DNA from: Macrococcoides canis
GTDB lineage: Bacteria > Bacillota > Bacilli > Staphylococcales > Staphylococcaceae
NCBI RefSeq assembly: GCF_002119805.1
Contig: NZ_CP021059.1
Span: forward strand, 1,240,001 to 1,304,000
Length of the DNA: 64,000 bases
Direction: 5' to 3'
Numbering within the stretch: the stretch's first letter is position 1; each line of letters begins with the position of its first letter. The notes beneath the pieces are model-generated. The model saw only the letters and a program-made list of their open reading frames with translations, searched no databases and was not told the origin of the DNA. Positions 51,384 to 54,950 of this stretch are shown here, one piece after another. A program made the translations under genes and the position numbers.

Positions 51384-51423
51384 AAAAAATCGAGATGCTG
51401 TCATTTCAGCTCTCGATTTTTTT
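51384..51423. terminator. Bidirectional terminator between DUF2627 gene and glpQ
   Basis: The stem ATCGAGATGCTG / CAGCTCTCGAT (one bulge) is flanked by AAAAA and TTTTTTT. The last glpQ codons lie within the stem. Confidence 0.85.
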
Positions 51424-52131
51424 CATTCGTTTTAAATGGACGGCACGTTCAACTTCATCTGTTATAATTCCGGTAACGCTGCTACTCATCCATGTTGTCA
51501 AATCTTTTTCTTTGTTTACAGTATATACTCTCGCAGGGAGTTCATTATGTTCCAGTTCAACAAGATGATCTACCGTAATATGTTTTGCATTCGGGTGTAC
51601 GCTCTTAATATTATGACTTGTCTTATAGTCCCATGGTGACTTATGATATCTATCAAACAACAAAGCAGTTTCGTATGATGGATCCAGCGCTTCCATCTTG
51701 ACCAAACTTTCAATATAAAAGCTCGAGATGATAATCTGATCATTAATATCATATTGTATTAATAATTCGTGTAATTTAGATTCTATCTTACCTGTTTCAG
51801 CTTTAATTTCGATATTTAATAGCTTATTATGTGCTTTAACGATATTTAAGACATCTGTGAGCAGCGGTACTTTTTCATTAGTCGCATTAAAGAGACCTTT
51901 CTTAATGTTAAACTGCTGTATTTCATCAAATGTCATTTCTGCAACTTTACCTCGTCCAGTTGTCGTTCGATTAATCGTATGATCATGAATGACAACTATC
52001 TGATCATCTTTCGTGAGATGGATATCGAGTTCGAAGCCATCTGCACCGTATTCCACTGCCTTATTAAAGGCAAGTAAAGTGTTTTCTGGGTATTTAGCGG
52101 AATATCCGCGATGTGCAAATATCAGTACCAC
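51406..52131 (-). CDS. glpQ: Glycerophosphodiester phosphodiesterase
   Basis: A 241-aa GDPD TIM-barrel enzyme that frees sn-glycerol-3-phosphate from deacylated phospholipids. The catalytic motifs are HRGYSAKYPENT (residues 7-18), FELDIHLTKD and VVIHDHTINRTT. There is no signal peptide, so it is cytosolic (UgpQ/YqiK type). The GTG start at 52131 has AAGGATGG 6 nt upstream and lies 2 nt after the Spo0A-like stop, so the two are co-translated. Bacillus has a similar gene (yqiK) near spo0A. Confidence 0.92.
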   Translation of the reverse strand: MVLIFAHRGYSAKYPENTLLAFNKAVEYGADGFELDIHLTKDDQIVVIHDHTINRTTTGRGKVAEMTFDEIQQFNIKKGLFNATNEKVPLLTDVLNIVKAHNKLLNIEIKAETGKIESKLHELLIQYDINDQIIISSFYIESLVKMEALDPSYETALLFDRYHKSPWDYKTSHNIKSVHPNAKHITVDHLVELEHNELPARVYTVNKEKDLTTWMSSSVTGIITDEVERAVHLKRMKKIES

Positions 52132-52133
52132 AA

Positions 52134-52805
52134 CTAACCATCCTTCAAAAATTTAATAAGTTCACCAATTGTCGGCTTTACGTATCTGCCATTTTCCTTA
52201 TACACTTGCTCTAATCCATTGCTCCATGCTTTTTCTATCGCATGGCGTATAGACCTTTCAACATTCGCTGGTTTAACTTGATGCAGTTCTGCAATTTCAG
52301 GATAAAGCATGATCGTCAGCTGAATCTTCTCATTTGGATGTTTGCTCACAATATCTAATGCATCCTTTAAATATCTTGTTCCTTTATGTTTGTCATTAAA
52401 GCCTAAGTTATTCAATAGCTGATCTGTATGATTAACAAAATCCATATTACAGATTTGATAAATTCTACTGATGAAATTATCAAAATTGATCGGCTTAAGT
52501 ATAAAATAATCGACTCCTAACGACATCGCCTCGCTCAAGATAGAGTCCTTTCCAAATGCACTTAAACAGATTATCTTATATTCATGAGATTTAGGAATAT
52601 ACTTTTCAAGCAAGCCAATACCATCTATATACGGGAGAATCAGATCAAGTAGAAGTAAATCAAACTCACACGTTTCAATCATATGTACTGCATCTTTCCC
52701 ATTATGACACATGCCTACTACCTTCATGTCATATTGTTCCAGATGTGCCTTGATTGAAAGTGCTAATTCCCTTGAATCTTCAATTATTGCGACTTTAAGT
52801 ACCAT
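52134..52805 (-). CDS. spo0A: Spo0A-like response regulator in a non-sporulating context
   Basis: A 223-aa two-domain regulator. The receiver (residues 1-119) has the acidic pair E9-D10, phospho-acceptor D54 (LLLLDLILPYIDG), switch S82 and K104. The effector (about 126-223) is of the Spo0A C-terminal type: HKGTRYLKDALDIV, LTIMLYPEIAELH and the recognition-helix segment VERSIRHAIEKAWSNG (182-197), nearly the Bacillus VERAIRHAIEVAWSRG. The hinge is very short and the C-terminus truncated compared with the ~267-aa Bacillus protein. It lies between recN and glpQ, exactly the spo0A position with spoIVB missing. The ATG has AGAGGG 5 nt upstream. DNA binding at TGTCGAA-type boxes is expected; its targets and kinases are unknown. 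Confidence 0.88.
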   Translation of the reverse strand: MVLKVAIIEDSRELALSIKAHLEQYDMKVVGMCHNGKDAVHMIETCEFDLLLLDLILPYIDGIGLLEKYIPKSHEYKIICLSAFGKDSILSEAMSLGVDYFILKPINFDNFISRIYQICNMDFVNHTDQLLNNLGFNDKHKGTRYLKDALDIVSKHPNEKIQLTIMLYPEIAELHQVKPANVERSIRHAIEKAWSNGLEQVYKENGRYVKPTIGELIKFLKDG

Positions 52806-52817
52806 ATTATCCCTCTT

Positions 52818-54485
52818 CTACTTAGTGTTTTGAGCAATTAGTTCTGCTGCATGATCCAGTGTTAACGGTGTGACTTCTACTCCCGATATCATTCTTGCAA
52901 CTTCATGAATCCTCATTTCTCCATCAAGTTCTGTAATTTGCGTAATCGTGCGATCATCCTGCTCAATTTTCTCTATATAAAGATGATGATCACTGATTGC
53001 TGCAACTTGTGGCAAATGTGATATACATATCACTTGTATATACTCAGAAATATCATGCATCTTTTCTGCCATCTTCTGTGCTACTTTACCTGAAACACCG
53101 GTGTCCACTTCATCAAATAAGATTGCAGTCTTTCCTTTTGATTCTGCAAAGATACTTTTAAGTGCTAACATAATACGAGAAAGCTCTCCACCTGAAGCAA
53201 TTTTATATAATGGCTTCAATGGTTCACCTTTGTTCGGACTTATCATAAACTCCAATGACTCGATACCTTCACTCGTCGGTTCAGTTTTCTGGAAAGCCAT
53301 TTCAAAGTTTGCACTTTTCATCTCAAGATGGTGAATTTCATCTAAGATGTTTTCTCTCAGACTTTGTGCAACGCGTCGTCTTGCTTTACTGAGTTGTAGA
53401 CCTGAGGCCATAACTTTGTCGTAAAGTTGTGCAATTGTCTGTTGAAGCTGAGTCGTCGATTCTTCAATATTTTCTATTTTATTGATTTCCGCTTCTAGCT
53501 GTTCAATAAATGGAATCAAATCGTTAAGTGGTTTACCATATTTTCGTTCTAAAAACTGAATATCATTCAAACGAGCCTGTAAATTATTCAGTTCCTGCTC
53601 ATCATAATCATTATTTGAAAGTTCATCATGTAATAAATGCTTCGTATCATCTAAAATATAGTAAAGCCCTTCTGCTTCTTCTTTTGTCTTATCAAATTTG
53701 CCTGGAATAATGGTACTTACTTCTGCCAGCTGTTCTTTGAAATCAAACAGTAATTCAAGTAATTTACCTTCATCATTAAGCAGCGTAATCGATTTAGATA
53801 GTGCATCATTTAATTTTTCAAAGTTTTCAAGTCGGTTAATCTCTTCTTCTAAACGTTCTTTTTCATTCACTACAAGATTTTTGTCGGATAACTCTTTATA
53901 TTGATATTTTATCAGATCAAGTCTTTGAAGTAGCGCCTCATCCTTTTGCTGGAGCTGTTCGAGTTCCTTCTGTTTTTCTTTATAATCAAAATAATATGCT
54001 CTGTATTCTTCATATAACTTCTGATACGACTGCTCTGAATATTCATCAAGCAGCATAATATGATATTTCGGTTTTAGTAGATGCTGTGTTTCATGTTGTC
54101 CATGAATATCAAGAAGTTCCTGCATAACTTCGCGAAGTTCTGTTAGTGTTATCAGATGGTTATTTATTCTACAGAGACTTTTGCCACTTTTATAAATTTC
54201 ACGCTTAACAAGCATAAAGTCATCAAGTGGTATCTCTTTTTGTTCAAGCAGATGTATTACTTTATCATTGTTCTCAATATCAAATACACCTTCTACAACT
54301 GCTTTTTGTTCTCCATGACGAACCATCGTCTGACTCGCACGCATCCCAATCAACTGTCCGATCGCATCAATAATTATTGACTTTCCTGCTCCAGTTTCTC
54401 CGCTTAATACTGTTAAGCCATTTTTAAGTTCAATCTCTAAAGATTCAATAATTGCAAACTGCTGAATAGATAATGAAACAAGCAT
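52818..54485 (-). CDS. recN: DNA repair protein RecN
   Basis: A 555-aa SMC-like ATPase of double-strand break repair. Walker A is SGETGAGKSIIIDAIG (about residues 29-44), Walker B is in AILFDEVDTGVSG, and the middle ~300 residues are a coiled coil with many Glu, Gln and Leu. The C-terminal ABC signature PLYKIASGGELSRIMLAL is present. It lies 12 nt after argR and 12 nt before the Spo0A-like gene, an operon-like run. Length is normal. Confidence 0.97.
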   Translation of the reverse strand: MLVSLSIQQFAIIESLEIELKNGLTVLSGETGAGKSIIIDAIGQLIGMRASQTMVRHGEQKAVVEGVFDIENNDKVIHLLEQKEIPLDDFMLVKREIYKSGKSLCRINNHLITLTELREVMQELLDIHGQHETQHLLKPKYHIMLLDEYSEQSYQKLYEEYRAYYFDYKEKQKELEQLQQKDEALLQRLDLIKYQYKELSDKNLVVNEKERLEEEINRLENFEKLNDALSKSITLLNDEGKLLELLFDFKEQLAEVSTIIPGKFDKTKEEAEGLYYILDDTKHLLHDELSNNDYDEQELNNLQARLNDIQFLERKYGKPLNDLIPFIEQLEAEINKIENIEESTTQLQQTIAQLYDKVMASGLQLSKARRRVAQSLRENILDEIHHLEMKSANFEMAFQKTEPTSEGIESLEFMISPNKGEPLKPLYKIASGGELSRIMLALKSIFAESKGKTAILFDEVDTGVSGKVAQKMAEKMHDISEYIQVICISHLPQVAAISDHHLYIEKIEQDDRTITQITELDGEMRIHEVARMISGVEVTPLTLDHAAELIAQNTK

Positions 54486-54497
54486 CTAATACCCCCA

Positions 54498-54950
54498 TTA
54501 TAACATGTTAAAAATACGTTCAGCAATCTGCTCTGCAGCAGATTTATCTCTACATATTAATAGACATGTATCATCTCCACAAATTGTACCGATTACTTCA
54601 TCCCATTCAAGCTGATCGATAATCGCACCTATGGACTGCGCATTACCTGGTAATGTCTTTAAGACGAGTAGGTTCTCTGTACCATCCAGCTTCACAAATG
54701 AATCCATCAAATATCTTCCGAGTTTATCTATCGGATGATACTTGCGATCTCTCGGTAAAGAATAAACATACTGACCATCCTTCGTCGGTACTTTAATCAG
54801 CTGTAATTCTTTAATATCTCTTGAAATCGTCGCCTGCGTCACATTCAGGTTGAATTCATTTAATTTTTCTACTAGCTCTTCCTGTGTTTCAATATGCTGA
54901 TTAGAAATAATTTCTCTAATTTTAATTTGTCGCATCGTCTTGTTGGCCAT
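54498..54950 (-). CDS. argR: Arginine repressor ArgR/AhrC
   Basis: A 150-aa arginine-dependent regulator. The N-terminal winged helix ([37 protein letters not shown]) binds ARG boxes. The C-terminal domain with [16 protein letters not shown] binds arginine and forms the hexamer. It lies upstream of recN as in Bacillus. An ARG-box-like palindrome (54965-54978) in its promoter suggests autoregulation that would also affect recN, the Spo0A-like gene and glpQ. Confidence 0.95.

Follow-up and report, generated by a model that had tools for sequence, protein, structure and literature searches.

Why should a coccus from a group not known to sporulate carry a regulator of the Spo0A type, and does this regulator stand alone? 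The question is raised by a gene in the window, the whole stretch of 64,000 nucleotides of Macrococcoides canis DNA that was analysed. The original prediction regarded the Staphylococcaceae as lacking Spo0A and described the gene as occurring without any other sporulation gene. The first statement is at odds with the Spo0A of Macrococcus caseolyticus, published in 2012 (PMC3533761), and the second with the presence of spo0F, spo0B and a kinD-like kinase gene elsewhere in the genome. According to Galperin 2012 (PMC3533761), M. caseolyticus possesses Spo0A and misses the core sporulation genes (Table 5 there), only Spo0M, SpoVB, SpoVG and Jag being present besides Spo0A, and it stands with Exiguobacterium and Bacillus selenitireducens among the non-spore-formers that have Spo0A. 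That report thus concerns the same gene and genus as the present analysis, with core sporulation genes reported absent, but its passages on these organisms name no Spo0F, Spo0B or KinD for Macrococcus and do not speak of Mammaliicoccus. In the available text of Davidson 2018 (PMC6136694), 15 of 68 genomes with Spo0A are from apparent non-spore-formers, for which an alternate role is suggested.

Spo0A without core sporulation genes in M. caseolyticus is already known (PMC3533761). New here are the presence of a full relay and its occurrence in four genera, together with the empty sites, the signs of selection and the modified DNA-binding end of Spo0A. From the sequences it is quite probable that these cocci, which are not known to sporulate, harbor a complete Spo0-type phosphorelay which was inherited vertically and rewired to a non-spore programme.

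The spo0A locus and its occurrence

The features of the locus, in positions of the window, are as follows.

52134..52805, minus strand: spo0A, encoding a divergent Spo0A orthologue of 223 amino acids (open reading frame and Pfam)
52461..52793, minus strand: receiver domain, residues 5-115 (Pfam PF00072, E 3.8e-21, invariant residues)
52644-52646, minus strand: Spo0A phosphoacceptor D54 (receiver alignment)
52143..52421, minus strand: Spo0A_C DNA-binding domain, residues 129-221, with the FGYT loop missing (PF08769, E 7.4e-21, alignment)
52215..52265, minus strand: recognition segment 182-197 with the preceding N181 (alignment with class relatives and family)
52818..54485, minus strand: recN, 12 bp upstream of spo0A, with no spoIVB between
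54498..54950, minus strand: presumably argR/ahrC, named from gene order, likely in the same transcription unit as spo0A
51406..52131, minus strand: presumably a glpQ-like glycerophosphodiester phosphodiesterase gene, 2 bp downstream of spo0A

The predicted 223-codon Spo0A-type gene is a single minus-strand open reading frame, of which the receiver (75.8 bits, cut-off 30.2) and the Spo0A_C domain (74.6 bits, cut-off 25) both score over the curated Pfam thresholds, and in a profile search of the whole genome of 2,363,414 bp it was the single Spo0A_C match. The NCBIfam equivalog model spore_0_A gave 170.5 bits, under its cut-off of 200, so the protein is filed as a divergent orthologue and not as a sporulation equivalog. 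A Foldseek search with the Spo0A model was unspecific: it matched receivers as well as further two-domain regulators, among which Spo0A did not stand out. The receiver, described as intact, indeed has E9, D10, D54, S82 and K104; across the family 23 rows cover position 9, of which 22 have E and one has D, while D10, D54 and S82 are conserved in 23/23 and K104 in 24/24. The recognition segment, said to be almost that of Bacillus, is identical to B. subtilis at 13 of its 16 positions, and the alignment likewise bears out the shortened hinge and trimmed end, the hinge and the C-terminal part both being shorter than in class relatives.

Genomes of the GTDB family were searched with the Spo0A_C profile, as the original prediction had proposed, and 24 of 108 carry the domain. 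The distribution follows genera.

g1, Macrococcus/Macrococcoides (e.g. caseolyticum DSM 20597, goetzii, bohemicum): Spo0A in 9/9
g2, Macrococcus bovicus, lamae, hajekii and others: Spo0A in 6/6
g3, with Mammaliicoccus sciuri, lentus, fleurettii and stepanovicii among its members: Spo0A in 8/8
g4, Macrococcus sp. DPC7161: Spo0A in 1/1

The fifth genus, g5, has 0/84 and would be Staphylococcus, judging from the genera listed in the family. Across the order Spo0A occurs in 24/157 genomes, identical to the 24 of the family, and in a sample of the class in 325/398. The 30 class relatives used for comparison below are the best-scoring loci of these 325 matching genomes and no random sample.

The gene order in the window is argR-recN-spo0A-glpQ, where argR/ahrC is named from gene order and glpQ from the first reading of the sequence together with its motifs. 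Because the gap to recN is 12 bp and that to glpQ 2 bp, spo0A probably shares a transcript with argR and recN. In 23 of the 24 Spo0A-positive family genomes recN precedes spo0A, the 24th locus being interrupted by a contig end. The original prediction considered this setting, between recN and glpQ, to be that of Bacillus. Its recN part holds here, but in 28 of the 30 class relatives what we take to be a SpoIVB-type motif lies just upstream of spo0A instead, recN being directly adjacent in one of the other two. The glpQ part holds in one of the two class relatives viewed, which has a glpQ-like gene downstream, and not in the other, which has a transporter gene. In the eight Mammaliicoccus genomes, one of whose stretches ends at a contig end, glpQ was not seen beside spo0A in any, and nothing found here favours glpQ or lipids in particular as a target of spo0A.

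Candidate relay partners

The original prediction had also suggested looking through the genome for kinases with Spo0F- or Spo0B-like partners, and this search yielded an orphan KinD-like kinase, a Spo0F and a Spo0B.

G000:C1:804295-805761, minus strand: KinD-like membrane kinase of 489 amino acids, with NCBIfam KinD as best match
2081128-2081475, minus strand: Spo0F of 116 amino acids, a lone short receiver beside fba
about 1502612-1503100, minus strand: Spo0B of 162 amino acids, a short SPOB_a protein between rpmA and obg

A domain search of the genome gave 20 HATPase and 18 receiver matches. The KinD-like protein is the only HisKA-type kinase without a receiver gene in its cluster; the remaining kinases are each paired with a regulator by position (the kinase at 1984513 via a four-gene cluster), and the other ATPase matches were read as GyrB, ParE, MutL, RsbW or a non-HisKA protein. 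Its best NCBIfam match is KinD over the full length (1.4e-74), at 251 bits as compared to a model cut-off of 775, and with E up to 1 the PDB matches of its sensor half are solely chains named 'Sporulation kinase D' (2e-7 and 1.4e-6). The phosphorylatable histidine is conserved in 24/24 genomes and the N-box asparagine, by column count, in 23/24, the exception being G018 with K; otherwise the kinase has diverged down to 33% identity within the family. Near 1966480 (L042:163-3105) a 552-amino-acid HATPase_c protein without HisKA is encoded together with an HNH-type protein and one of 214 amino acids that matches no Pfam family; this three-gene cluster could be a defence island.

In the available text of Davidson 2018 (PMC6136694), Spo0F and Spo0B were identified by neighbourhood and not by sequence score: Spo0F as a stand-alone receiver immediately upstream of fba and near CTP synthase, Spo0B as a SPOB_a domain protein between rplU-rpmA and obg. 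The two together are considered strong evidence of a phosphorelay, and according to the same text no role of Spo0F or Spo0B outside the Spo0 pathway had been reported by 2018.

The candidate Spo0F is the only short stand-alone receiver among the 18 receiver matches of the genome. It lies between DUF2529 and fba in all 24 Spo0A-positive genomes, with pyrG also within the stretch in 19 of them; in the M. canis genome we take the names fba, DUF2529-like and pyrG from gene order and sequence. Among PDB entries a solved Spo0F (3.1e-15) came second to a chain named 'Response regulator' (1.9e-15). A short Spo0F was found in 24/24 Spo0A-positive genomes at E 2.4e-26 or better, whereas the best match in any g5 genome reached 1.5e-18, and the g5 matches among those listed lie in frames of at least 221 amino acids. 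D52 and K101 are conserved in 24/24, the acidic pair in 23/24 and a KPF motif in 24/24. In the draft assembly of Mammaliicoccus stepanovicii (G021, L140) the start of spo0F is out of frame with the remainder, which is either an assembly error or a real lesion.

A short SPOB_a protein between rpmA and obg is likewise present in 24/24 Spo0A-positive genomes. The SPOB_ab model (PF14682) gave no match in the M. canis Spo0B at E <= 0.1; since this model was judged too specific for use in the available text of Davidson 2018 (PMC6136694), its absence is not taken as defining for Spo0B. The sequence matched a solved Spo0B only weakly (E 0.24), and the fold was therefore compared through a predicted structure (pLDDT 87.9, from a 24-row alignment). 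The best PDB match of this model in Foldseek is B. subtilis Spo0B (1ixm, E 1e-8, TM 0.78/0.73), and the four top matches are B. subtilis Spo0B chains, whereas the rest of the 50 listed matches, mostly kinases, have TM < 0.5 by query length. The residues H12, D13, N16, Q17 and Q19 are conserved in 24/24. In four of the six g2 genomes (L150, L151, L152, L153) the protein is shortened to 133-137 amino acids, with the C-terminal domain partly gone. SPOB_a matches also occur in 19 of the 84 g5 genomes, in frames of at least 437 amino acids bar one 27-amino-acid antisense match; the long frames were set aside as other kinases, on length alone, and the antisense match, a weak one in G085, was rejected as a Spo0B remnant because it lies on the opposite strand of a murA-like gene.

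Descent, loss and selection

All four relay proteins occur in 24/24 Spo0A-positive genomes of the family (Macrococcus, Macrococcoides and Mammaliicoccus). The kinase was found in each of the 24 and in 0/84 g5 genomes at 1e-30, and across the order at 1e-25 in the same 24/157 genomes as Spo0A. The 84 g5 genomes also have neither Spo0A nor the short Spo0B, nor, among the matches listed, a Spo0F-like match, and a retained subset of the relay was seen in none of them (for Spo0F among the matches listed). Because the presence of the relay follows genera, one or two losses may account for the pattern, which is thus weak proof of functional linkage.

The corresponding sites in g5 are empty. In all 14 g5 genomes examined (of 84, chosen for long contigs) spo0A is missing after recN, and the next same-strand frame of at least 90 amino acids, at most 380 bp on, is what we assigned by eye as a ptb-like (eight genomes) or dihydrolipoamide-dehydrogenase-like gene (six). 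No Spo0A match at E 0.01 was found in the 20-kb stretches of these 14 genomes. The genes argR and recN are adjacent in 13 of the 14 stretches, the 14th ending before argR. A ptb-like gene follows spo0A in two of the three Mammaliicoccus loci viewed, and the third has a transposase-like frame of opposite orientation. For spo0F a single g5 genome was viewed, and there fba and DUF2529 are 218 bp apart without Spo0F between them.

The three bacillar neighbourhoods together with the empty g5 sites point to vertical descent and clean loss, and the vertical descent of spo0A proposed in the original prediction is thereby upheld. If the family had instead lost its own genes and acquired the relay horizontally, this would fit the tree, in which the family Spo0A is one clade on a long stem, and also the other families of the order, whose 49 genomes have neither Spo0A nor the relay kinase. 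Such an acquisition is barely credible, however: it would have to place Spo0A, Spo0F and Spo0B in three separate neighbourhoods of bacillar type, and the empty g5 sites match for spo0A (14/14) and for spo0F (the one examined).

Ratios of dN/dS were calculated by the Nei-Gojobori method with our own script, undefined pairs being left out; G004, whose spo0A is interrupted by a contig end, was excluded from the Spo0A alignment, tree and dN/dS. The values are 0.025-0.068 for Spo0A (7 of 9 pairs defined), 0.058-0.117 for the kinase (9 of 11 pairs defined), 0.067-0.166 for Spo0F (11 pairs) and 0.107-0.522 for Spo0B (11 pairs). As judged from these ratios, the relay is under purifying selection with conserved phosphosites. 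A relay that is intact, does little and is being lost as in Staphylococcus would be an evolutionary leftover, for which one might cite the Spo0A DNA-binding domain, among the weakest matches of the class sample, and the failure of 0A-box searches to reveal a regulon (see below). We consider a leftover very unlikely in view of the low Spo0A ratios in all seven computable pairs and of the retention of the relay in 24/24 genomes of four genera despite a kinase at 33% identity, which is hardly free drift.

The altered output half and the proposed phosphorelay

The arginine that precedes the Spo0A recognition segment lies near DNA, and the FGYT loop belongs to the region where Spo0A contacts sigma-A. 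Immediately in front of the recognition segment, 30/30 of the best class relatives have R, but 24/24 of the family have N, T or S, while E183, R184 and R187 are conserved in 24/24. In the alignment with the 30 class relatives, 23/23 family rows show a gap in place of the F of the FGYT loop, and the G is lost. At 2.9e-17 to 6.9e-23, the Spo0A_C scores of the family are among the weakest of the class sample, most of which scores about 1e-45. One class relative (G158, L275) has recN directly beside spo0A, yet shows the usual recognition segment and FGYT loop; loss of spoIVB there alone thus does not cause the DNA-binding changes.

A search for boxes of the TGTCGAA type, also put forward in the original prediction, gave no enrichment of B. 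subtilis-type 0A boxes. The sequence TTTGTCRAA, a B. subtilis-type consensus, occurs 46 times in the M. canis genome versus 104 times for the reversed control, and 25 of 30 examined sites (30 of the 46) are inside open reading frames of at least 80 amino acids. A TTTGTCRAA site upstream of an spx-like gene was dropped as a candidate, being present in 3 of the 15 genomes having that gene (16 stretches). Tandem 0A boxes with at most two mismatches were not over control in eight of the nine genus genomes; in the ninth, G001, 27 were counted versus 17 in the control, a number swollen by a repeat array. In the 96 stretches taken upstream of relay genes, 95 of them 250 bp and one 88 bp long, there are four TGTCRAA sites. 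The B. subtilis-type boxes being not enriched, they provide no regulon backing for the relay output. Near-identical sites of the TGTCGAAC-ATGTAGAA type form short arrays with a spacing of about 61-62 bp at G001:C1:287232-287619 and 1425806-1426070, at G008:C1:1392212-1392350 and in G004:C82 and C54; these arrays are apparently a dispersed Macrococcus repeat family and not Spo0A boxes.

In the proposed chain the membrane KinD-like kinase, with its KinD-like sensor, would autophosphorylate on H284, presumably upon a signal, and the phosphate would pass to D52 of Spo0F, from there to H12 of Spo0B and finally to D54 of Spo0A. Spo0A~P may then bind DNA via its changed recognition surface, without the loop common to spore-former relatives, and drive a non-spore programme, perhaps by repression more than by activation. 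The relay genes would be a vertical inheritance from the sporulation relay of bacilli and would have been lost in Staphylococcus. The four-protein chain, by which bacilli decide on sporulation, is intact by sequence in a group without known spore-formers and probably controls something else, and the altered recognition surface and missing loop of Spo0A suggest that this is a non-spore programme; the combination of a conserved input half and an altered output half suggests that the relay has acquired a new regulon, which it may mainly repress. The original claim that Spo0A now controls something else is accordingly well placed, a new role being likely for a relay kept under selection with an altered output half. 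We lean only slightly towards the broader proposal that a full Spo0 relay can outlive sporulation and serve, in the macrococcus and mammaliicoccus lineages, a vegetative programme by way of a Spo0A with a new DNA code and no FGYT loop, the whole relay having been lost at the origin of Staphylococcus.

Similar to the B. subtilis Spo0 relay (KinA-E, Spo0F, Spo0B, Spo0A), the system described here has the phosphosites, a Spo0A_C family regulator and the spo0F and spo0B neighbourhoods; its architecture would likewise be of four steps, and its sensor resembles that of KinD. It differs from that relay in that one orphan KinD-like kinase was found, no spoIVB lies beside spo0A, Spo0A has lost the FGYT loop and the Arg preceding its recognition segment, B. 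subtilis-type 0A boxes are nearly absent upstream of relay genes, and the host group is not known to sporulate. With the clostridial pathways of direct Spo0A phosphorylation it would share an orphan kinase feeding Spo0A, but where such phosphorylation was verified in clostridia Spo0F and Spo0B were not found, as given in the available text of Davidson 2018 (PMC6136694), and both are kept here.

A kinase acting directly on Spo0A, as in some clostridia, would leave Spo0F and Spo0B with another role or drifting. The fast evolution of Spo0B, the fastest of the four with its dN/dS of 0.107-0.522 and its shortening in four of six g2 genomes, is what one would expect of such a change. The residue after K104-P105 of Spo0A is in line with it as well, being I or V in the family and F in 30/30 class relatives, which gives Spo0A another partner surface than Spo0F, where KPF is found in 24/24. 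Direct phosphorylation is nevertheless unlikely, as the phosphosite of Spo0F and the five Spo0B residues from H12 to Q19 named above are kept in 24/24 and the relay parts are kept together, with no g5 genome seen to have a subset. The four-step relay thus remains the preferred reading.

For Macrococcus or Mammaliicoccus, no description of Spo0F, Spo0B or KinD was found in the open-access literature, supplements and most subscription journals aside. If the proposal is true, this would be, to our knowledge, the first Spo0F-Spo0B relay shown with a purely non-spore job. Since sporulation is reported gone in these cocci, a relay kept there by purifying selection would allow its non-spore duties to be studied without spores, and the loss of a global signalling relay sets Staphylococcus apart from its nearest relatives in a way that can be tested. 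The changes in Spo0A also suggest a division of its features, the FGYT loop and the Arg that precedes the recognition segment serving sporulation and others serving signalling at large.

Two observations concern other lineages. Auricoccus indicus S3, a member of an otherwise non-sporulating group near the Staphylococcaceae, was predicted to have SpoIIIAB (PMC7924749, available text). In the class sample, weak Spo0A_C scores of 1e-20 to 1e-39, as compared to about 1e-45, were also obtained for families f19 and f6 (genus g72) and for G309 and G197; these bacilli are possibly further lineages with an altered Spo0A.
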